Shown: one piece after another, positions 16,928 through 62,090 of the stretch
Numbering within the stretch: position 1 is the stretch's first letter
Layout: each line of letters starts with the position of its first letter
Assembly (NCBI GenBank): GCA_950295325.1
Contig: OX485806.1
Coordinates: 15,438,001-15,502,000 of the forward strand
Origin: Polytrichum commune
Lineage: Eukaryota > Streptophyta > Polytrichopsida > Polytrichales > Polytrichaceae
Direction of reading: 5' to 3'
Length of the DNA: 64,000 bases
Made by a program: the position numbers and the translations under genes
The notes under the pieces: model-generated
The model's input: the letters and a program-made list of their open reading frames with translations, nothing else
What the model was told of the DNA's origin: nothing
Database searches by the model: none

Positions 16928-19900
16928 TCAGTTCACTTGACTTAACCCTTCAACCCCTCCAAGTGCAGAGTAACCCTTGATAACTGCAATGCTGGAAAAA
17001 CCTGCACCATGCCTGCCAGCTGAGCCTGAACCTGCAACAAAAACTTATCCATTAGCCACAGAAAGCAACCTAGGCGCCTAATATAAACTATATTTCCACC
17101 CCAGACTGCAATATCTGTACTGTGATTAGTGGGAGTGATACAAGGTAAGTGGGCCTGAAACGGACACTTTTAGCTCTGTGCCCACTTTTCCTGGGATATT
17201 AAACACAGTACTAGTATGAGATGATCGAGGTCGTAAGCCACTTTCCACATGAACTTTCGAGCTCATTTGAATATCTTATCCATTCTCAAAGTGAAGATTC
17301 TCATTCTTGTTAGATGATCATATAGGACCCCCCAACTATGTTGACTACTGAGTCTAGAATGGTTAAAAGAATTTGTGCATGTAGTCCAATATCTCTTAAA
17401 TACATATCTTTCAAGTGTCCAATCTATTCATGAATGTTGATAATAAGCCTGAAACATTTACCTGATTCCCCATTTCCTACCACTTCTTCACAACCGTCTC
17501 CTACTACGTACTTCATCTTCTCGGTACCCACTTCCTCCATAGAGCTCTTGATGAGCCTCTCCCCTCACAAGCCAATTCTCTCCAGTTCTATTTTTCGGTT
17601 CAGCAGATCTATTATTCCCACGTATCTCCTTCAGTGGTGAATCTGTTTCTTGCACCACGGCAAGCATACCACTGGCTTCTTTTGTTCTAAATGCAGGCTC
17701 ACTAGCATCTGAAATAGAGAACCAACAAACATGTGCATTAGAACCACATCAAACACATGTCATTCAGGGTTTAAAGTTTAGAGCCAATCTCCAATCACAG
17801 AACAAGTACGACTAAGGGCGGGTTTACACTAGGGTCCAAGACCAAAACAACTCCAAAATCAAGCGACCCTGTTGGTCTAGAGCAGAAATAGGGTCGGGGT
17901 CCAAGGTATGAAATAATGAAGTGACCCTAATGTGGATTCACTTTCCCGCCAAATCTCAGTGGTCCCTACCCAAGAAAATACACCCCTTAGTTTGAGAAAC
18001 CGATCTTCAAGCTCGGGTCCACTCTCGAGTCCGAAAGTAAGGTCCATTAAGGGGTGTTCTGGACCCCAAGTTTTTGGAACCCGGACCCTGATGGAAATCC
18101 ACCCTAAGGTCTAGCTTGAGGTTTACATTGCAAAGAATTCATACCCAGATCTAAAGACGGTATATGTTGGAGGTCCAATCTCCCCAAGTACACAGGCTCT
18201 TTCACAGGCTTCTCCTTCACAGTTTTGGCTGCTTTTCTGTCTCGACTAATCAGCTCCAACCTCCGGAAAAACTCATACTCTTGTCGCACGGCTTCATCCA
18301 AAAAGCTGTTGGAGGTCTCCTTCCTTTGGTCATCGCTCCAACCCTCCTCCCTCGAATCATAATCCCGTTCTGAAAGAGTAGATGTATCCGAATCTGTCAT
18401 CCTTCCATTCATCTCCGCATCCTCCCCGCCACCACCACCTCCACCATCATCCCTTTCAAGACTTGCAAGTGCAGTTTGTGCCTCTTTCACGATGTGCGAA
18501 CCCGCCCTTGTTTTCTCGACGATTCGGTTGATCAACATCCGACCAAGCATCTCTTCAGCTTCCAGCACAAGATTTTCCTCGCCAAAAACATTGATGTCGT
18601 CATCAACCAAATCTAAATTACACTGCTCAGACTCAGATGCACGCGACTGGCACTCCCAATCAGACCCCGTCGCAGGACCGGGCGTCTCGCCTTCCATCAA
18701 GCCCTCCCATCGCGCAATTTTGTCAAGAACGGTAGGGCTTAAATCCCCTGACCTACCCTCCAAGCACAATGGCCGCTGCGTGGGCAAATTAAACCCTAAA
18801 CCTAAACCCGGCCCCTCCCGGGATGATGGCTTAAACAACTGTTGTCGCACCTTCACCTTCTCCTTCTCGACAGGCGTGTTCAACCCTGCTCGGCCACCGC
18901 CTTCCCAGAACAAAGCGGCTTTCCGATCCACCGGAACTGTGCCGCCAGAATTTGCAATTGGCCTTGTCGTCCCACTCGCGTCTTCGTACTTAACCGAGTA
19001 GTGCATATCTGAATCCGACATCTCTGAGACCGATTTTGACGACTCGAGGGTTTCCGTATATTTTACAATCGCTGTACAGCTCTCGGCCTTCGGAGAGGCC
19101 GGCCCCTCCTCAGTCTCGACCTTTCTCACGAGGATGGAATTGCCCGCATCCGAGTTCCACGAGGTTCTTCGGCTTGGATGGGGAACCAGCAATTTCCCCC
19201 TGCGAAACCAGCCACCCGTGTCGCCATTATTTGTTGTAGCCTGGAAACTGGCTGGATCAACCGAGTGATCCCAGCCATCAGCAAGAGAGCCTGTGCTTGA
19301 GTAGTCACAAACACTCGGCGTTGCGCTACCCATTTCCGAGCTTTCGGGATAATCAGATTTCTCCAACCCTTGAACAGAATCAATCAACTGCCTCTCAATT
19401 TGCGCGTTGTCCATTACTTGACTGCAGTCCCTCGAGGCTTGTGTGGTCGTTGCCTCAGTATGTGAGGAGGACCCAAATTCTTCATCGTCTATCATAGACT
19501 GCAAAAACTCATTGCAAGTTTCATCCCCAGCTGGAACAGTGATACCTGGAGTGGCGTACCTCTCGGTATCCCTAGGATTCTGCAAATAACCATCACAACA
19601 ATAGAGTTAATCTTAAAGTGTGGCAATGAAGTGAAGTCGATTTCCCCTTATGGTCCCTTGTTCGAGGGTAACCGGAAAGTCTTGGAGGGCTTCTTTGAGT
19701 TTTAGGCACCAACATGTTTCATATTTATATAACTAAAGAATCTTCTCATTTTCTTTGCCACCTATAAGCACGTGTCTCATCAAGGTACTCTTTGCTTCTC
19801 TCAGCACTTGTGTACTCCCCAAATAAAATCAAACTCAAGAAAAGAACTCAAAAGTTTCTCAAAGTTTTGTAGCCTTGCAATAAAAGCAAGAAGAGTTTGC

Positions 19901-22900
19901 TCCCTTGTTTTCTTTAGGTTACAAAGTGTTTTGGTCCCCAATTTAGGTGAATTTACCGTAAATTCCAATGTGTATCAAGAGGTGAACCTTTTAGGCACTC
20001 TTGCAGCAAAGGAAGTGGACAGTGTTCTTGATCAGTTCCTGATCATGAGAAATATTTGTGAGCAGTAAGTGAACACAACAGACTTATCCTTTCTAACTCA
20101 ATGGAGTTTTTCATCAGGAGTTGGTGCACTGTGATTTTCCAATAGTTGTTTTGCATACAATATTAAACAATCATTTCCACTTGTGGTGCATGCTTGGAGG
20201 TAGAGTTCGAATTTGAATGAAGAGCAACTAACTTCAGTTCATTGACGACCAAACTCGTTTTAGTACCTCTTGGCATGCCAAAATGATGAGTTCAACCCTC
20301 AACAAAACAATGTAGAATGTTCTTTGTTCAAACCTCCACACTACCTCCAAGCATGCACCACAAACTTACCGAACATGGAACGTACCATATGCAATAACAA
20401 CCAACTCCAGACCAAAAGTTATATTGAGTTAGAGGATAACTCTAATGGCTCGCTAATTGTGATGATGTGATTACTCATAAGTCTCATTAAGTACCTGTTT
20501 CACATCTGTCTGCAAATCTTCCTTTGTTGTCTCCACCTCTCCTGATGTTACTACCACAGGGGTATCACTCAATCCACCTGGCCCTGTAGTGTTTGTGTCA
20601 GCCTCACTACCACTTACCCATGTACTTGCTCCCTGAAGAGGGAAGTGAAAACTTTCTTGACCTTCAAGACTGTCAATGCCTTTCACACCAGTCTTCTCAT
20701 CAACATTCTTTTGGTTGGGAGTTTTGGACCTCTCAACCAAAGTCTTGGCAGCAATTGTTTTCCCTGGAATCGGAATTTCATCACCTGCCAGTAGAAAAAT
20801 GTCAGACAAACTGAAGCCGCCAATAGAGGGTGGACAGCTACTGATTACCAAAAAAAATGTTCATAGCAAACATTTGATGACAACGAGCAGATGATTGAAC
20901 TTCATTGAACTCCTTTGACCTCATGGATTTACTTGTTAAGAACTAAATGGAAGCAAGACAATAGCTTATATCCTTGAATTTCCTTTTCACTACTACAGTA
21001 AACTTTTTTACACATTGCACTTTCTTGATAGGGCATGACGTAGTGGTGGCAAAAGCAACTGGGAGGGACAAAGAAGGTGCCTGAAGTAGAGGTAAGAGAA
21101 CCCTCCATCAACTGTCGCACTCGATCCTTCCACACCTCAAGCTCCTCCTCTTTACTCTGCAACTTTGACTGGGCTCCTTCCAGCTCCTCCTCTAACTCAG
21201 TAAGCAACTCTTCTTGTCGGGTTGCCTGTTTAAAAGCAAGCATTCCAGCCTCCCATGTCAATGCCTAGTACTCACCATTGCCTCAGCTACCTCCCATGCT
21301 GACTAACATGAAGATGGTACCACTCAAGAAATTTATTAGTTACAATAAATGATTAATGCAAATTGGCAACAATTTACTCAATTCATGTCACCAGAAAGAT
21401 TCCTGACCTGCACTTTGCGAAGAAGTCGGGCAAGCAATCGTGGTGAAACAGCATAATTGTTCAAGCATGCAGGTTGTGCAGGGACTGAATAGTCATCATC
21501 CTCTGAACTTTCCTCTAATCGGGCAGGTAGGCCTGCCACCTTTAAATCACCATAAACAACAGATGCAACACCATCCATATCGAGCTGCGGATACCAACGA
21601 GATAAATAAGGCCATGAAGACAAAAGATATCCCAGAACTCAAGAGCACAACTCCAGCTCCTGCTAAAAGCTAACATAGTCATGATCCAAGCAAATACCTG
21701 TACATAGTGTGCTTGCTACCAATACACTAAACATCTGATTTAGTGGCATTAAAATTGGTGTGCCATGTAAAATTGAGTAGTCTTCATGAACCAAGCAACA
21801 AGTGTCATATGACACACTCTCTTGTTGCCACCCAGTGTTTGCAAGACAATTAATTTGGGTCAATGATGGATAGTGCGGGCCACACTAAATCAGATGTTTA
21901 GCACAGTGTTCATCTTAAAGGCTATATAAAAGTATAATGTGCCTAATTAGCCGAACCTCATCTAAGACTGAGTACTGGCTGTCCAGTACAGAGTCACCCC
22001 CGGTGAGCTGATCCAGTTCAGCCTCCAACTCTGCTTCGAGCTCAGCCATCTGATCCCCTTGATCCTGTGATTCCAGGTCATAACTTACGGTTCCATCACG
22101 AGTACACCTAATTGCTCCTTGATCCAATCTCCCTCCAGCCTGTGACACGTCAAAGCAAGCAACAAAATAAGAGCAGATGTTGGTAAGCTCACATTATAAC
22201 CCACACCAGTGTGCAGAGAGGCATTACAACTTGCATAACCTTTCTTTGATACAGGCAGAGCAAGCTTGAAATCAATAAATAAAAGTTGATAGCTTACCAA
22301 GGATGCAGAACCTCCCCTACTTTCAAGCTCTAGCTTGAGTTTTTGCATCTGAATTTGAGCCTCATCCAACAACTGGTTCAATCTTTGAACTTCAGCTTGG
22401 TGTGCCTCACTTGCTGACTGGACCCCAACACCCACTCCAAAACCGAATAGCAAGGCCTCCTTTGAGGACAAGCTCAGTTCTGCAAAACAATAAAATAAAG
22501 AAATAAATGAGAAAGGGCTATGAACAACAATATATATACTTCGTTCTGAGGCTATCAGCTTCATGAAGATGTCAGTGTCATGCTGATGGATGCCACAGAA
22601 TGCCAATGATAAAATACGGTTCATCACTAATGCAACTGAGAATGTAATCTCAATTGTCACAAGACCTACATTGAAAACGATGTGAGATATGTTCTCGCAG
22701 GATTGCTTGGAGTTACTACATCATCAATGCACATGTAGGCAGCAGATTTTCTGGAACGGAGTAGGTCAATTCTTTCTCACTATCAAAAATACTAACAGAC
22801 GTCTTTCAGCACAACCATAAAAGTATGAAGGTGCATGTAAGTGCATATTGGATAGATCAATTCAAAGGCGTAGAGGTGGAATGGAAAGCCAAAAGTAGGA

Positions 22901-25082
22901 ATCACCTTCCACATGCAGCTTGTCACTGCCTTGATCAGATCCCACTGATAGGTGCTTAACATCAGAAATTTTCCTCTTCTTCAAGATGACAGGCAGAAGC
23001 GACTTCTTCCATTGATTGTTACCAGGACTACCTGCTGGCATTTCAACAGCTGCCTGTTTTGGTCCTGCTTCATCTGCATCGGTGTTACTGTCCACCTTAT
23101 TTGGTGCTAGCCTTGCTGCAAACCCCTTGAGCACCTTTTGAAGGTTGGGAAGGCTAACAGAGCCAGTTGATGAGCTTCGTCTCTCAGCCCCTACTGCAGA
23201 ATTGTTATTGATTGGGGTGACATCGGGTGACGTCGGGACTCCATTGATGTAGCCTATCATTTTAAAGCCATTTTCAGGTCTGCCCCTTCCATCTGCTGGA
23301 GGGGAGAAATTGAGAGGACGAGAGACCTGCCTACCCCGATCTCTATCATTCTCATCAGTCAGCTGAGCTCTTAAACAACTCTCCAAGGACGATACAGGCT
23401 TCGGAGAGGCCCGTAACCCTCGAACTTTTCGTGCCAAAGCTTTGCCTCGACTGGCCTTACTTGGAGTCCTTGAACGTCTCGTGAAGCCTCCTCCCCCCTT
23501 GACTTGTTCCTCCTCATCAGGTAGTTGAGTGAAAAATTCCGCAGCATCAAAGCCTAAGAATGGATCCGACTGGCCCATTAATCCCCACGCAAACGCGTTC
23601 GGGTGCATGTCAGAAGGCACATTCTCTTCTCCAATTCCATCCTTTATCCTCTTCCCAGCAGAGGTGGCCCCCCAAACAATGTCGTTTGCATCATTGAAAC
23701 TGTTTCTTCGAGAGTCCTTCAAGCGCTTCCCAGAATTTGTGAAAGATAACGATACCTTCCCTTTCCCTGACATCTTTCCTCCCTCGTCAGGTGTCTTGGG
23801 ATCTTGATCACAACTACACCTGCTTGTTCTCCTCCAGCCTCTACGTCCTGCTGGTGTCTTCTGTGCCTGGAACTTATACACAGTCCCAGAACCTGGCACA
23901 CCAGACAATCTTCTTAGAACAAATTCCTTACTCGCAGGAGACGTGACCTTCAATGCAGTGTCGTGCTGATCCTCGCTCACATGCGAATTGTTGCCCTTGT
24001 CCTCTGAAAGTGGGGAAGCTTCAATAACCACAGCAGCAGTATGCTTCGCCTCTGCTACTTCCTCCTCAAACTTCTTTGCAAGCTGAGATGGATGTAGGAC
24101 AATTTGATCTGAAATCTTGCACTTGATATCATCAGATTGGCATTCAGGTGCTGATGAATCATGTGCATAACAGGTTAGCGGAGCAGCAACTTCTTCTTCA
24201 GGTTTCTTAACAGCAGGGGAATTATGCGCAGACAGAAATGGCTTCACCAGTATAGGCTCCTGAACATTTCCGTCACCACAATCACCCAAACCTTCCACCT
24301 GGCTCACTAAATCTGCGAGGCAGGGCGCAGAGAATGAGGATAACCTACCACGAGCTGCAAACCTTGACAATGGAGGACTGTCCTTGAGACTACTCTCACT
24401 TCCATCAGCTACATTGTCATAGTCTCCCTCTTCATAAATAACTTCTTCTCTCGAACCACGCCGTGGGCTGATACAGCTCCGGATAATATCATGGCTGGTA
24501 CCTCCACAGAATCCAGCTGCGGTCGAGGCGTTGTTCGCTTTGCCATGCAACTTCTCTAGCTCAAGCAGCTTCTGGTACTCTTCCAGATGATTCGTATCTT
24601 CGAGATCCTCCAGCACAGCCCTCCCTTTAAGAGAACCACCATGATCATAGCTCAGCCTTCGTGAGAATACGCGCGTTGGCAGAGACCTAGTCCTTGATAC
24701 CTTGGAAGAATTTGGAGATCCTCTGGGTGATGTTGATCCATACGGGGTCTGCACCAGTGTCAAACAAACCCACAAACAAACATTTAGCTCCAAATAGAAG
24801 CACTACACACTTAAGAAAAGTGTTGCCACAACTTCCTATCACTTGCTGTGCCTAAATAGAGTACACATGAGTCAAGGGTTGAGATGAGATGACCATGCTT
24901 TCACTTTCATAGTTTACTCTCGACCCTCTAAAGAGTCGGAATGGTCTGTGACCGGAAAATGACCTAACAGTTGGGATGACGCACAAGTAATGGAACTTTT
25001 CTTCCCTTAATCAAAGTCAGCACTCAAATGCATTTCTTGCAGTACAGAAATTCACCTCTCTCTTGCTGTGCTTGCCTCCCAT
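16928..25082 (-). CDS. POLAR-like polarity scaffold protein, 1487 aa, 10 exons
   Basis: Exons by my reading: 25082-25056, 24748-22906, 22479-22298, 22139-21957, 21584-21408, 21264-21081, 20784-20495, 19579-18145, 17708-17670, 17031-16928. They total 4464 bases and every junction is in phase. The start ATG at 25082 follows an in-frame TGA directly. Plant POLAR proteins localise asymmetrically at the cell cortex in stomatal-lineage cells. The family signature seen here is an ELEAELEAEL acidic helix (about residue 715), a VSPRLLARLLRK segment (about 790), and a coiled coil with EGAQSKLQSKEEELEVWKD (about 830-850). The first 9 residues, MGGKHSKRE, fit an N-myristoylation motif. Residues 10-623 (one exon) and 963-1440 are low-complexity and probably disordered. 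The size exceeds the flowering-plant POLAR proteins I know of. Family assignment rests on the coiled-coil core only; the C-terminal exons are inferred from splice signals and phase. Confidence 0.82.
16945..17031 (-). other. Terminal exon region of the POLAR-like gene
   Basis: A TTGTTGCAG acceptor opens an exon at 17031. Read in the phase left by the previous exon, it gives GSGSAGRHGAGFSSIAVIKG, continues through a Gly-rich stretch and ends LSQVN and TGA (stop 16930-16928). The 39-base exon before it (17708-17670) has a TTCTCTATTTCAG acceptor and a GTG/GTATGC donor, is phase-neutral, and reads DASEPAFRTKEAS. Both fit the phase-1 donor G/GTATGAATT at 18145. If these exons are not used, translation would instead read through to a TAG at 18106-18104, giving 1453 residues. 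Confidence 0.65.
17816..18104. mobile_element. Tourist-like (PIF/Harbinger) MITE in an intron
   Basis: The element starts GGGCGGGTTTACACTAGGG and its other end, reverse-complemented, starts GGGTGGATTTCCATCAGGG, an imperfect inverted repeat of about 28 bases. It is flanked by TAA on both sides (17813-17815 and 18105-18107), the 3-base TTA/TAA duplication typical of PIF/Harbinger MITEs. It lies in the intron between exons 8 and 9 of the POLAR-like gene, 40 bases past the donor. Its first minus-strand base contributes the G of the TAG that would end an unspliced message. Confidence 0.8.
21079..21102 (-). other. Non-canonical or alternative 5' splice site after exon 6
   Basis: The next exon begins at 20784 in phase 1 (GGCAG/GTGATGAA). 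Two upstream donors fit that phase: a GC donor TACTTCAG/GCACC ending the exon at 21081, and a weaker GT donor ATGGAGG/GTTCTC ending it at 21102. The first keeps SLTSTSG after the coiled coil, as in related proteins (SL followed by Ser/Thr), so I used it. The choice changes the protein by 7 residues. Confidence 0.55.
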
Positions 25083-54300: not shown

Positions 54301-54465
54301 TATAAATACAACTACTGCTGCCAGGGAGGCATCTTGTTTACACTGTATCCAAAATCACCATAAATGAGGAGGTTCAAGACTTACGTTCTCATACCCCAGT
54401 AGGCTTAAAAGCTCAACATACAACAAACAAACAAACGAAGGAACTGAAATCTGTGATGGAACCTC

Positions 54466-57400
54466 TCAATAGTAGGTCTGCTGCTGAGCTGCTCCTTGAA
54501 GAGTATATCCACCAGCAGCTTGTTGTGGAACTTGTTGCATCACACCATACTGAGCACCATAGGCGGGTTGAGTTGGGTAAGAGGTTGCTTGAGGCATCTA
54601 TTAAAGGTTCACATTAAACATGTCAGGTCACTGGCAGCCACACTGTGGTGCAACCAGAATTAAAATTATTGATATTTTCCCCCCAATGCACCTACATTAG
54701 ACATCTCCCAGTTTCAACACCACTGTGGAATTGAAGGTAACATCTCACCTCTTGAACTGGAACAGGAGGGTTGACCATGTACTCTTGATTTACAGCATAG
54801 CCAGTGGCATAGTTATGTGCTGGAGGAGCATATTGGTTGCTGTACATTTGAGTAGTAGGTGGTTGCTGCTGTGCTCCTGCCTGACCAATTGAACCTGCAC
54901 GTCCATACAAACCAAGTGGGAAGACATCAATTACTGATTTGTTCAATGTGATCAAATCATTGTGAAAGTTCTGCAATTGCTAGAAACTGAGACGTAATAG
55001 TCAGAAACTAAGCTCTGAGGCCATAAACTCATAATAGCAGTAGCCTTGTTTAATTCGACTCATAAACGCCTGCAGCTGCAGGCTCTCCTCAGCAGATTGC
55101 AAGAACCCCATACTCACCAACAAAATGTGATCCTTAAGGATCTGAATTGTAAAACTAATGCCAGGATATAATGGAGGGACAACAATCATAAACACAAATT
55201 TCTGAAGTCCAGTATCTTACCAGTTGGAAGTGCAGCTGAAGGCTGAGGAGCTGCATCATAAATTGAATAAGGGGTTCCCCCTTGAGCTGGACCTCCCACC
55301 ATTGTAACAGGCATGCTTGCTTGTTGTGTAGGGACATGTTGTGTCTGACCCATGCTGTGGCCTACTGGTACTCCTTGAGTTTGTTGCACATACGCATTGT
55401 ACTGCTGTTGTTCTTGGGGACGTACAATAGGTGCCCTGTCTTCCAGAAAAATTACCAATTATTACCGATCATCCATGTGACAATTTAATGTCCTAAAATA
55501 GAATCCTAGAGCAGCACACGAAAGAATCAACAAATCTAAACATGGCACAACAGCTTAACCAAGTAAGTGTCATGACATACTCTGAGATAGAGAAATTAAG
55601 CTCCACAGAAAACTACAACAGACAGGTTATAGCACAAACCTGGCTGCATCATTGTACATTGGTTGCTGCACAACTGGCAACCTGTATCCAGATTACACCT
55701 TGTTAATTGGTTGAGACACAACACATCTGATTGATGCAAATTTGGACAATACATCTGTCAAGAAGTTGAAATAATTTGACTGCACACTGCACCTCTATTC
55801 TTATACTTGATTCTACAGCAGACAAGTAAAGATAGCCTAAACAGTTTGAGGTCTATGCCATTCTCATCTTCCCACCCACTGAACCGAAACTCATGAGCTC
55901 AGAATAGCCACAGTACATACACACTATTACTTAATCAGAGAAATTGTGAGAGGAGTGTCAAAAGACAACCTTGGAGCCTCGGAATACATTGGCTGTGCAG
56001 GATAGCCCTGTGCACCTCCAGCTGGCTGCATTGAAACCTGCTCAGGGGCTTCTATGCGTTGGCGAGGAAGACCTCTCTGTGCATCTACAAATCTAGGGTC
56101 TTCTTCCTGTAAGGTACTTAATGGAAATTAGTAAAGGTTCCATATAAAGGAAGCTATTTACAATGACTTGTGTCACATCAGTAAGTATACAAATATATAT
56201 CCAAGACCATTACTGTAGTGAACAGAGGAAGTAAATAAAATTGTACCATGGAAGTAAAAGGTCGCTTCATTCCTGCCACTTCGTACTCGCGATTAGGAAC
56301 ACCATAACCTCCAGGAGGTAACTCTCGGCCACCATAACCAAGTGCAGGAGGTGGAAGCTCCCTACCACCATACCCACTCCCACCCATATCACGGCCACTG
56401 TAGCCTCCACCCAGACCTCCACCACCAACATAATCTCTCCCTCCAAAAGCTCCACCTCCATAACCCCGTCCACCTTGGATTCTATCATACCGCTCAGCAT
56501 AAGTTTCAGCATGGTTTGGCATCCCACCACGGCCCCCACGGAATGAAGGATTGTATGCACCACCTCCCCGTCCTACATACCTATCTCCATAACCAGTACG
56601 ACCCCCTCCTCCACGGGGAAAGTCATTACTGTAACCACTCAAAGGTATTGTGTTTGGGTTGCTTGGATAGCCACCGCCACCACCACCCACAGCCCCACCA
56701 CCAGCACCCCCTCCAAAGTACATATCATTCCCACCATGGCGCCTGTTTCTCCCAGGTCCAAAACCCCCAGCCCCTCCATAAGAATTGTTGTATGTGTCAG
56801 GGGGAGGCCTCCAATCATCATTAGACCTCCCACGCGAATTACGGAATGGTCCACCACCGATGCCACCAGCAGCACCACCACCAGCTCCACTCTTACCCTT
56901 GCGACCGGGCCGATCGCGGTCACCAAACCTCTGTCTAGATTGGCCAGGTTTTGTAAATTCAGACTCTGGAACCTTCTCCATAATTTTCTCAAGAGCATCA
57001 GCAGCTGCCATTTGCTTGGCTCTTGCCTTGTTGCGGCCAACCCCAAATCCCTTGGTTGGAGGACCTGTGGCTCCCCCAGCAGCCCCTCCAATTATGGCAG
57101 TTACTTCAAATGGACCATTTGTTTCTGCTTTTGTCTCATAGTTGACTTCACAGTGGTTGCGGGAGGCATATTCATGCAAAAGAGAAAGAGGTGTTTTGTT
57201 GTGTAGCTTCTGATCCTTGCGGAGTCCTTCAATAACCCTGTGAACCTTAGTTTTCTTGTGCAACTCATAATCATCAGGAGAATCTGAACCAAACCCACAC
57301 ATTGAACACTCAAACTTGTCAAGGGTGGGCTTTGTTACAATTTCCCCGGCTACAGGTGCTGCCTGCTCAGCTCCTGCAGAGTCACCAGGAGCTGCAGTTT

Positions 57401-60400
57401 CTCCATCTCCATCAGGAACTACTGGTGCAGATTCAGGTTCTTCTGTGAGATCAGGCTTCTCTTCATCTTCCACTCCTGATGGATGGTCTTCTTCCGTTGC
57501 TTGATCCCTCAACGCATGCAAAAGCTGGTATCTTGAATCCATCTCATCATGACTGCGTTTTCCTCCACGTCTAGTTTTCCGATCTACCCTTTGTGTCCCT
57601 CCAGCTCCACGAGCACCACCTAGCCTTCCCTGATTTTCAAAACGAGGGACACTTCCCCAACCTGGTCCTGCAAAAGACAAGTGATACATAATAGTGGTAC
57701 TGTCAGTAATAAAAATACAAGAGAGTGTCAGAATTCCAAATAAAATACTTACTTATTTTCCCTCAGAACAACAGATAATCTTGCTGCAAGTCGTACACTT
57801 TACTTCAAACTGTCACATACCATCAAAAGGCCCTGGTCCTGATCCTGGTCCTCCTCTTCCAGAGCGGCCAGGACTTGATCCCACTCGATGGTCACCCCGA
57901 AACGCTGCAGGATATCCTCCTCGAACTCCTCCTTTAGCAGGTTTGCTTTTTAATTGTGGCTTTGCAAGCATGACCTTCATCTTCATCTGTCAAGGACAGA
58001 TCCAGTCGTAAGAGAAGTACAACATTTTGGCAGTGATTGGAGATCCACAGTAAAGCAAAAGGACCAATCCACCTCATGATAATGCGCAAAGATATGTACC
58101 TTTATGTCTCCATCACTGATTTCAGTATTGTTTATGGCTTCAATGCATGCCATTGCAGCATCACGTTCTAAATAATTTACAAATCCAAAATCCTTTCGCT
58201 TCGCAGATAACATATTACGGGCTAGAACTATGCGTTCTATTTCTCCAAATTTCTCAAAATGTTCCTTCACCTTCTCTTCATCCCATGTGGGAGGCATTCC
58301 ATCAACAAACACAGACTTCACCTGCATCACACAGCCATCACAGCAAGTAAATAATCAGATTTGTATGTGTTCCAGAGAATTGTGCTAACCAAAACGCCAC
58401 TACATTTCTTGCGAACAGATGAAATAGCATGTAACATAAGAAAAGAATGCCCTTGCAAAAAAGAATGGATGTCTTCACAATTGAATGTACCTGGGACATC
58501 GTATCCTCATCTGGTTCATTTAGTGGCTGTGCCCATGCAACTTTAGCTGAGCGTTCAGTCCCAAAGATAGCATCAGCTTGTTGTAGCCGGCGGAAAGCCC
58601 TCAAAGCCTCCTTGTGTGTGCCAAACTCAATAAACGCAAATCCACGGTTGACACCCTCAAGCTGAGGATCTTCCATCAGTGTCAATTCCTCAACGGTTTC
58701 AATTCCAAAGGTTTTCAATGTCTCCAATACCTGCAATCAAATACCCAACATGATGCACCACATGAGAAATGATTTGAGTAAACTGTTGCAAGTCCCCAAG
58801 GCCCTTCTCCACCAATAATATTATCACTTTTTGGTGTGATCACTACAAGATTTACATCCATGCAAACTTTGTACTCCAACCTAGGTTACATGCACTTCAA
58901 CTCCCAATGACAAAGCTGGCACTCACATTGTCCTTTTTCCATGATTTGCTGATATTGCCAAGGAACAGTGTGTCATTTTCCTCGCTTGGCAGAACCCCAC
59001 ATTCGCGACCTCGGATCTACACAAACACAGTTGAACTTTCAGTTTCAAGACGGAGGCAAATTGTCCAAGTCACAAAATTCCTGCAAAGCAGATTGTCCAA
59101 CCCTGAGGTGAACACACCAGATAAAGTTCAACATGTTAAAGTCCACACAACATTCACGTCATCACTTGAAGTACCATACCAACACAACCAATTGCCATCC
59201 TTAACCTCCTGGCACTACATCATGCATGGCAATGAAAACAATAGCCACCACATCACTAACTAACTCATTTGTACCCTGCAGATGGTAAAGATTCAGCTAC
59301 TGCTCATCTTCAATTACAAAATGATATCTCTAATCTAGTTACAGAATCCCTGTTGCACCCATCCAGCTACAGCTAAACTCAGATATGCTCAAACATTTAC
59401 AAAATGTTTCTCCCACTGTCCATCAAAAGTCCAATACAGCAAGACTCCTAACCAATCTGACACTAGCAACCACAGATCAACTACCAACTCATATCCAGCA
59501 ATCACCCAGAAAGTAAGCTTTTTCAAATCAGGTGTGTTCTTGGTATGGTACCCTTATTATTTAAAGGTTGGAAAGGGAGGGGCTAGACATAGACAATATT
59601 TTGTAAAAATAGCAACAACACTAAGATGCAGAAAGTACTAAAAGATCACAATGTAGAAGAGTGGCTGACCTCCACATGCTCCAATTCTTCAGCAGCCCGC
59701 TTTGCCATCGCTGTAGAGGAGTAACGAATGAAAGCATACCCTTTGTTTTTTCCAGTCTGTGGATTCCGCATCATTCGCACCTCAACCACCTCGCCACACT
59801 TCTCAAAAACAGACTTCAGGTCCTCATCTGTCGTGTCCTTATCAAGTCCGCCAACAAAAACCTCCAATTGTTTGTGCTTCCGCCTCTCAGAGATCGGCAA
59901 TGAGTGTTGTGCCTCAACATCATATTCTCCTACCTCTCCATTCAGCTCTTTGAGGTCATCCATATCACCATCTCTATCTTCATCCTTGTCCTCATCATAT
60001 TTCTCCTCTCCCCCATCTACATTGCACAGATCATGTTAGAGTAGCGTCTAGGTTTGAGGTTATGATCATCAGATAGATTCCTGTAACACATCATTCACCC
60101 ATTTGAATCACTAGAAAGAAGAAAGTTGAGGAATTCGTGGACTATACTTTCAATTTGGATAATAAAGCTACACTGCGTGGAAAGGACCGCCGTTATCTAG
60201 CTTAGCGCTCCATTTCACCTTCAAGCATTGTTAGATCACTACTATTTAACATCTAATTATGAAATGGTAATATAGCAGAGACACAGGCTACAAAAATCGA
60301 TTATCACTGTGTGTCCTCACCATCGCCCGCAAACCAAGAACTGCTCCCCTGAGCAGATATCTACTGTATACACATCATCCGCAATAACCCACAACAAGTG

Positions 60401-61462
60401 CGGATGGGGCATCATTCATGCATTCCGGATGGCAAATCCACAGTAAAACGAAAATCATCAACTTCACCCACCCCATCAGATAAACAAATGGTCGAAGAGG
60501 CATAAGTATCACATAAAATCAGATCACATTGAAATTTTAAATAATAGATAATGAACAAAACAAAACTACTTCTCACCTAAGAAATCATAATGATCACCAC
60601 CTATGTCCTTGTCAGCTTGGTCCATGCTGTCTTCCATATCCCCTAGAGGAACCTCAACACCTTCTTCCATTTTCTGCGCATCGTAATCCACCTCCATTTT
60701 CACAGGCTCAATTGTCTCCGCTTCCTCTTTCACAGCAACCTTTGATGCAAGTGGCTCTTCGCTTAAAATTTTCTCGGCCTCACCCTCAAGGCTCTCTGCT
60801 GACACTAACTGCGATTCCACCTTCACATCAAGAACAGGCACTTTCACTTCTTCATCCATAGCCATATGCTGAGGTTCGACATCGACCACAACAACAGAAG
60901 ACTCCGTCACCACGACCGAAGTAGTCTCAATTGACGAGGCACTGAGATCTGTACATACATCAACCAGAGAATGTTCCTCCGTGTGTTCTAGTTTCGTTAC
61001 AACCTCCTCGATTATTGTGGCTTCCCCATTCGCAACAGAAGCAATGACAGGCTCGTGTTCTTCTTGTGGTAGTCCCATAACTGCAGCAGCATTCTCTGTT
61101 CCTGATCCTGCTATACCTTGACCATTGGTGTCTAAGAACCTACTACCCTCCGAGGCACTATATTGGAGCTCAGTAGTAACTTCTCCTTCCACGGTTGCCT
61201 CCGTTTCCATAACTGCCACTTCCGTCGTCGTCTTAGTCGTTATCGTCTCCGTTAGGGTTACAGTTTCCGTCCCCGCGACATCGACCGAGAGTGCTGATGA
61301 TGACTCTGTCAACACAGCCTCCTGTGTTTCTACAACCTGTTCTTGCGCTTCCGCCTCGGCACTCGCCGCTTCTGCGGCCGCGGCCGCGGCTGCGGCAGCA
61401 GAAACCCTACCTCGCCCTCTCCCTCTGCCTCTTCCCCTTCCCCTCCCCGTCCCTCGCGCCAT
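54466..61462 (-). CDS. hnRNP Q-like RNA-binding protein: 3 RRMs, U1 zinc finger, dsRBD, RGG; 1347 aa
   Basis: Twelve exons: 61462-60577, 60016-59670, 59016-58927, 58730-58491, 58321-58100, 57986-57821, 57667-56247, 56106-55970, 55681-55640, 55435-55221, 54894-54749, 54597-54466. They total 4044 bases, all in phase with GT-AG sites. Order of parts: MARGTG plus (GR)n and nine Ala; acidic residues 296-330; RRM1 about 346-420 (VFVGG, KGYAFIRY); RRM2 428-510 (LFLGNI, RGFAFIEF); RRM3 522-600 (SVFVDGM, KDFGFVNY). Then a C-x2-C-x12-H-x5-H finger (C771, C774, H787, H793), a dsRNA-binding domain (809-880, ending GVGRNKARAKQMAAADALEK), a Gly/Arg-rich stretch to about 1110, and a Q/Y/P-rich tail ending QQQTYY. 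RRM sequence (RECGVLPSE, ARNMLSAKRKDFGFV) is closest, from memory, to the Arabidopsis At2g44710 type. Nuclear RNA processing is inferred from the family. Confidence 0.93.
57037..57363 (-). other. U1-type zinc finger and dsRBD coding segment within exon 7
   Basis: This segment of exon 7 encodes KFECSMCGFGSDSPDDYELH, then KVH and, after about 20 residues, the dsRNA-binding fold. The dsRBD shows the usual marks: TPLSLLHEY helix 1, CEVNYET strand, GPFEVTAI strand, then G-x-G-x-(N/K)-K-A-x-A-K-x2-AA-x2-AL helix 2. Between strands 2 and 3 there is a Gly/Ala-rich insertion (GGAAGGATGPP). Both domains sit in a single uninterrupted exon together with the RGG region. Confidence 0.85.
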
Positions 61463-62090
61463 CGCTACCTAATAAATCAACCGCCGCTTCGTATCCAAAA
61501 CCCCTCCGCCGATTCACCTCCAGTGCAATCCACAATTCAATAAAAAAATCCTCCTCCACCTCCACCTCCACCTCCTCCGCAGCAAGAACCAAAACCTACT
61601 CACTCGCTTAATCTACATACAGCAAAGAAAACTCGGACGCTCGCGCCATTAATAAAAAAAGACGATGCAAGAAGAAGAATTAATGACAGCCTTCCCACTG
61701 AATTCCAGAATCCGAAAACCAAAACCTCCAGAGTTTCCTTTTGCATCGATTCCCTTATGCCAATATAGGTACACGAGTCACTCCTCGATCGCAAAAGGAG
61801 ATGCCGAAAAATATATTTCGTGTGCGCATAAGCTTGTGTATATATAAAGCGCTGAATCCACCGGCAAGGCAAGGCAATGCAGCAACCCCTGCACGCTGCT
61901 TGCTACAATTGTTGGTGCGAGTACGGGTCCGATGTCGAAAGCGCTGGATGAGCCATGACCGAGAGAGCGAGAGAGAAGTGAGTAACTTTTAACCTCGGTT
62001 AGGGTTTGAAGGGGCTCTTTGGCAAACGAGCCAGACGACACTTCACCACAGCAGCAGAATGAATGGCATTTGCGAGGCAAAGGGGTTCCC
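61463..62090 (-). promoter_or_regulatory. Promoter and leader of the hnRNP Q-like gene
   Basis: A telo-box AAACCCTAA lies on the minus strand at 62007-61999, and a CT-rich tract (CTTCTCTCTCGCTCTCTC) at 61978-61961. TTTATATATAC at about 61848-61838 could act as TATA box, placing the start near 61,815 and leaving an untranslated leader of about 350 bases. Telo-boxes and CT-rich leaders are common in plant genes for translation and RNA-handling proteins. The assignment is inferred from position only. CCACC repeats (minus: GGTGG) at 61,553-61,576 lie in the leader. Confidence 0.5.
61999..62007 (-). promoter_or_regulatory. Telo-box (AAACCCTAA)
   Basis: Exact plant telo-box on the coding strand of the downstream gene, about 540 bases before its start codon. 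Such boxes are bound by telomere-repeat-binding Myb factors and are often found with TEF or site II elements; I do not see those here. Confidence 0.55.

Follow-up and report, generated by a model that had tools for sequence, protein, structure and literature searches.

We analysed a 64,000-nucleotide stretch of Polytrichum commune DNA (assembly GCA_950295325.1, contig OX485806.1, positions 15,438,001 to 15,502,000; hereafter the window, in whose numbering positions are given), which carries on its minus strand a gene for a predicted RNA-binding protein combining three RNA-recognition motifs (RRMs), a probable zinc finger and a double-stranded RNA-binding domain (dsRBD). The gene is composed of 12 predicted exons and 11 introns, all GT-AG, which yield a single frame of 1347 residues, open throughout from the ATG at 61462 to a stop codon at 54468-54466. 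All splice junctions, including that from 57821 to 57667, were predicted from the sequence. An initial annotation had described one continuous frame across the splice phases with three RRMs, a finger, a dsRBD and an RGG region; the frame and this domain set were both recovered here, with the finger graded as likely. The span assigned there, 56970-59016, covers RRM2 and RRM3 together with the finger and almost the whole dsRBD. Upstream of this span are the acidic N-terminus and the greater part of RRM1 (59670-59861), and downstream of it follow the second RGG region and a tail rich in Gln, Pro and Tyr. The gene represents a real, uncommon domain combination within an otherwise known protein family.

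Exon 1 (60577-61462, residues 1-295) encodes the start codon and an N-terminus of RG repeats, followed by a poly-Ala run and then a long acidic Thr/Val/Glu-rich stretch. Exon 2 (59670-60016) contributes an acidic linker and most of RRM1 (residues 348-417; its portion in this exon, 59670-59861, was assigned by PF00076), and exon 3 (58927-59016) contains the end of RRM1, a linker and the start of RRM2. Most of RRM2 is encoded by exon 4 (58491-58730, with a TIGR01648 match at 58485-58700) and RRM3 by exon 5 (58100-58321, PF00076 match at 58112-58312), whereupon exon 6 (57821-57986) adds a post-RRM3 segment and a first RGG region, as judged from the splice model and the composition. Exon 7 (56247-57667) encodes a basic stretch that by eye resembles a nuclear localization signal, an acidic linker, the zinc finger (57240-57308, residues 771-793), the dsRBD (56985-57188, residues 811-878) and a second RGG region. 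The remaining exons of the splice model are exon 8 (55970-56106), exon 9 (55640-55681), exon 10 (55221-55435), exon 11 (54749-54894) and exon 12 (54466-54597), the last of which holds the end of the Gln/Pro/Tyr-rich tail and the stop codon. Directly ahead of RRM1, 38% of residues 296-347 are Asp or Glu. RGG occurs three times within residues 601-700 and four times within 886-1124, and the low-complexity arms contain 32% Gly in 886-1124 and 18% Gln in 1125-1347. Members of the hnRNP R/Q family have an acidic N-terminus and an RGG C-terminus, and the gene has both.

Since all junctions are predicted from sequence alone and the whole of the long, undivided exon 7 sits in a 524-codon open frame, this exon could belong to a separate transcript, so that the RRMs and the finger-dsRBD part would not form one protein. 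However, the exon 6/7 junction (ATG/gtatgtga ... tgtcttttgcag/GAC, slashes marking the exon borders) keeps the phase, has plausible splice sites and unites the two halves of the RGG-rich region, and the model is open from start to stop. We regard such an artefact as very improbable. The G+C content at codon positions 1, 2 and 3 is similar in the finger-dsRBD part (0.57, 0.42 and 0.39) and in the RRMs (0.56, 0.35 and 0.44).

In a Pfam search with the full protein, RRM_1 matched three stretches (E = 1.1e-44). The RNP1 motifs of the three RRMs read KGYAFIRY, RGFAFIEF and KDFGFVNY, and aromatic RNP residues are present in each of them, which makes binding of single-stranded RNA likely. When the 264-aa RRM region was used as the query, TIGR01648 (hnRNP-R-Q) was the best of nine NCBIfam profiles, with 172 bits compared with 110.4 bits for the next one, and its alignment runs as a single stretch (query 5-264 of 264, model 59-306) through all three RRMs in the order found in hnRNP R/Q. 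Among solved structures (best 60 of 275 matches to the RRM region), chain 6kor of hnRNP Q aligns across RRM2-RRM3 with E = 1.4e-23. Two results count against a strict assignment: the TIGR01648 score lies under the subfamily cut-off of 317.85 bits, a threshold set for the whole protein, and a PABP chain obtained a better E value (9.8e-29) than hnRNP Q, matching the three RRMs as separate stretches. We therefore label the protein hnRNP R/Q-type and do not treat it as a certified subfamily member. At this level the proposal of the initial annotation that the RRMs are of hnRNP R/Q character is supported by the best-scoring profile and by 6kor.

The presence of a dsRBD after the RRMs also held when examined by profile search. 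PF00035 (dsrm) matched residues 811-878 of the full protein with 27.2 bits (cut-off 23), and the dsRBD piece alone reached 34.5 bits (E = 3e-8). The nearest solved dsRBD is that of Loquacious, with E = 5.2e-4 for a 126-aa query and 0.021 for the 77-aa dsRBD alone. A canonical dsRBD has an alpha-beta-beta-beta-alpha fold, with three lysines in its last helix and a GPxH histidine in the loop that joins strands 1 and 2. Read by eye, the last helix of the window domain starts with K-A-R-A-K and keeps two lysines and an arginine. In the loop joining strands 1 and 2, however, the sequence is GP-FEV, with no GPxH histidine. Single-sequence AlphaFold runs did not yield a confident fold, with a mean pLDDT of 53.8 for the finger-dsRBD part (128 aa) and 57.2 for the dsRBD (89 aa), so that these models were too poor to use. 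Because of the missing histidine, Staufen-type domains may contact a duplex more strongly than the window domain does. Duplex binding is thus plausible from the sequence, but maybe weak.

The zinc finger ends 17 residues ahead of the dsRBD. JAZ/U1-type fingers have the ligand spacing C-x2-C-x12-H-x5-H, which is matched exactly by the finger at residues 771-793 (C771-x2-C774-x12-H787-x5-H793). In 20,000 shuffles of the protein, the strict finger pattern never occurred and a loose one occurred in 10, both patterns having been written after the finger was seen. With the 47-aa finger piece, the top Pfam match was zf-C2H2_jaz, a profile described as "zinc-finger double-stranded RNA-binding", which covered 27/27 positions with E = 0.01. 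This match scored 16.4 bits at a cut-off of 22.6. A number of observations are unfavorable to the finger or to its JAZ/U1 type. The classical zf-C2H2 profile came second with the same piece (E = 0.02, 15.8 bits, cut-off 25.2), the finger stays under every Pfam cut-off, and Pfam lists no zinc-finger model at E up to 10 when the full protein is the query. A genome-wide search with PF12171 (JAZ) returned 71 places at E up to 10, from which the finger is missing. Among solved structures, U1/JAZ chains were not found with the finger piece; AVR-Pii (E = 0.063) and rubredoxins (0.15) lead, followed by C2H2 chains such as those of ZNF692 and CTCF. With a 210-aa piece, zf-C2H2_2 (E = 0.087) ranked ahead of zf-C2H2_jaz (0.16). 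We conclude that residues 771-793 probably form a zinc finger, possibly of JAZ/U1 type, a classification based mainly on the ligand spacing. For the U1-type finger of the initial annotation this means that the spacing stands and a finger is likely, whereas the type falls short of the profile threshold. NCBIfam matches to the tail were all below cut-off (RNase III with the 210-aa piece, E = 0.021; ribosomal L37e with the finger piece, E = 0.032). A pattern search for the tail in the viral_contigs collection gave zero matches, and the 47 pattern matches in genome_contigs included no relative upheld by tblastn; both results are as expected for a plant gene, and neither has a bearing on plants.

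We also searched the genome to which the window belongs (408 Mb in 64 contigs), in which every listed place lies on contigs C1 to C7. The only match to the finger-dsRBD tail was the window gene itself. PF00035 identified 14 dsRBD places and PF00076 at least 92 RRM places at E up to 1e-5 (150 of the 244 candidates were scored). RRM2 of the window gene is missing from the latter, indicating that RRMs split by introns escape this search. By-eye comparison of the matches listed showed that one of the 14 dsRBD places, the window gene, has an RRM place no more than 50 kb away; the next nearest pair among these matches is about 66 kb apart. At three places, on C1, C2 and C4, two strong dsRBD matches are found close together. 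These six paired matches score between 60.9 and 71.6 bits, compared with 31.1 bits for the window dsRBD in the same search, which would be in line with a decayed, functionless domain in an otherwise ordinary hnRNP R/Q protein. Yet the domain is still above the curated cut-off, its frame is open and the finger ligands are intact, and we consider decay extremely improbable.

The RRM region itself matched eight places in the genome: four exons of the window gene, one place in a paralogue and three others, one on C1 and two on C3. The paralogue (C1:17064500-17074000) is a LIF2-like hnRNP R/Q gene with an acidic N-terminus and RRMs that, read by eye, runs into a short RGG tail ending in GRRYRPY and a stop codon. 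Its intron between RRM2 and RRM3 falls at MSQ/VK in phase 0, identical in position and phase to the intron between exons 4 and 5 of the window gene, and its third RRM shares 34% identity (23/68) with RRM3 of the window gene. None of the 14 PF00035 places in the genome is near this paralogue. Since no dsRBD was detected there, the finger-dsRBD part seems to characterize a single branch of the family in this genome. A locus at C2:14.5 Mb, which also matched TIGR01648, was rejected as a further paralogue; by eye, its three RRM-like frames and the fragment that follows look like FPA/SPEN-type.

Three things are read from the sequence: a predicted gene model, a set of domains in a given order, and a paralogue without a detected dsRBD. 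From these we infer the RNA binding, targets and granule association outlined here. With the probable finger 17 residues from the dsRBD, the simplest account is that this plant hnRNP R/Q-type protein with an additional finger and dsRBD acts as a bipartite reader, recognizing a linear motif together with a neighboring stem, a reading that we favor with moderate confidence. The three RRMs would hold single-stranded, probably A/U-rich, RNA, while the finger-dsRBD module would dock on the adjoining duplex. Preferred transcripts would be those in which a linear motif lies beside a stem, such as 3′ untranslated regions, introns or structured precursors. The RGG and Gln/Pro/Tyr-rich arms could add weak RNA and protein contacts and thereby condense the complex into ribonucleoprotein granules.

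Three Arabidopsis proteins, At4g00830, At3g52660 and At2g44710, are listed as hnRNP R/Q proteins with three RRMs and no dsRBD in the survey ASRG (PMC545797), which dates from 2004, so that weak domains could have been missed. At4g00830 is LIF2, described with a Gly-rich domain containing a putative RGG box after the RRMs; At3g52660 and At5g28390 are named as its close relatives, and At2g44710 does not appear in the parts of that paper drawn on here (PMC3031606). As far as these descriptions go, the window gene resembles LIF2, At3g52660 and At2g44710 in its three hnRNP R/Q-type RRMs and differs from them in its additional finger, its dsRBD and its long Gln/Pro/Tyr-rich tail.

The animal parallel drawn in the initial annotation is borne out by the description of an hnRNPR-like subfamily comprising DND1, RBM46 and A1CF (written ACF1 there), in which hnRNP R-like RRMs are followed by a dsRBD; the combination is called rare and limited to DND1, which has two RRMs, and the two other members (PMC9537309). 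The window gene shares this order of hnRNP R-type RRMs and dsRBD. In DND1, regulation in a reporter assay required the dsRBD, two of the three targets tested were bound without it, and the domain is missing some canonical RNA contacts (PMC9537309). By analogy, the finger-dsRBD part could mainly be a protein-interaction module, with the RRMs choosing the target and the dsRBD recruiting effectors or dimerizing, as proposed for DND1. This is the main rival to the bipartite reader, and the lack of the GPxH histidine in the window dsRBD would suit it. On the other hand, the window domain passes the general dsrm profile and retains two lysines and an arginine where the last helix begins, and the adjacent probable finger, whose top match is a model for dsRNA-binding fingers (below cut-off), fits duplex binding. 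With the full protein as query, Pfam did not list DND1_DSRM (PF14709) at E up to 10; a genome search with this profile gave four places at E up to 1, the window gene not among them. A finger and long RGG or Gln/Pro/Tyr-rich arms are not mentioned for DND1 in the description cited. We judge a mainly protein-binding role possible but rather unlikely and retain the bipartite reader.

Within the green lineage, Chlamydomonas DUS16 is described as containing an RNA-binding motif and a dsRBD (PMC12026948). It associates with DCL3 and is required for microRNA production (PMC12026948, PMC6129010). Like the window gene, DUS16 is thus a green-lineage protein with domains for single- and double-stranded RNA, and the initial annotation had overlooked this earlier pairing of an RNA-binding motif with a dsRBD. 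Among the open-licence papers listed by our literature searches, no title or abstract opening describes a dsRBD in an hnRNP R/Q protein of plants, which is weak evidence of absence. The window gene might be compared to DUS16 in function, as a land-plant DICER-LIKE partner recognizing primary microRNA transcripts. However, the descriptions of DUS16, on which this comparison is based, report one RNA-binding motif and one dsRBD, with neither three hnRNP R/Q RRMs nor an hnRNP R/Q assignment nor a finger. Moreover, the three paired dsRBD places on C1, C2 and C4 show the layout of HYL1/DRB proteins, so that a canonical partner is probably present and a DUS16-like microRNA role becomes less likely. 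We consider such a role distinctly improbable, and the bipartite reader remains the preferred reading.

Other features of the window and the genome are mentioned for completeness. Rfam gave zero matches in the window at the gathering score, and tandem repeats were not found over 54400-61600. Two frames antisense to the gene were treated as chance: Pfam matched nothing in 56547-57206 at E up to 10, and 56297-56824 had a single weak match, to TIP41 (E = 0.13, below cut-off). Two further long minus-strand frames, 22862-24802 (646 codons) and 18104-19606 (500 codons), neither of which Pfam matched at E up to 0.1, probably belong as exons to another gene or genes. The genome also contains three LFY loci (C_LFY_FLO) at C1:40571878, C1:62299295 and C7:8635861; they mark a plant with several LFY copies. 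In the first of these, the DNA-binding domain reads KMRHYVH, and the residue that is H in most land plants and D in mosses is H in this locus.

Because DND1_DSRM did not match the protein at E up to 10, the data do not support a shared origin of the gene and the animal architecture, and we take convergence as the default explanation. It is also conceivable, though quite unlikely, that an hnRNP R/Q-type reader of single- and double-stranded RNA is an old green-lineage architecture surviving in DUS16 and the window gene; in flowering plants, the tail would have been lost, duplex reading would have passed to HYL1-type DRB proteins, and the RRM part would have been kept as At2g44710. Interest in the gene is moderate until the spread of its architecture is established. 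Should the tail prove real and conserved, plants would own a dsRBD-bearing protein of hnRNP R/Q type, and this architecture is rare according to the description of DND1 (PMC9537309). This would reflect either convergence on a reader of adjoining linear motif and stem or a link from algal DUS16 to the RNA-binding proteins of land plants. With its tail present as a single copy in its genome, the gene may provide a handle on how such a plant reads structured transcripts.

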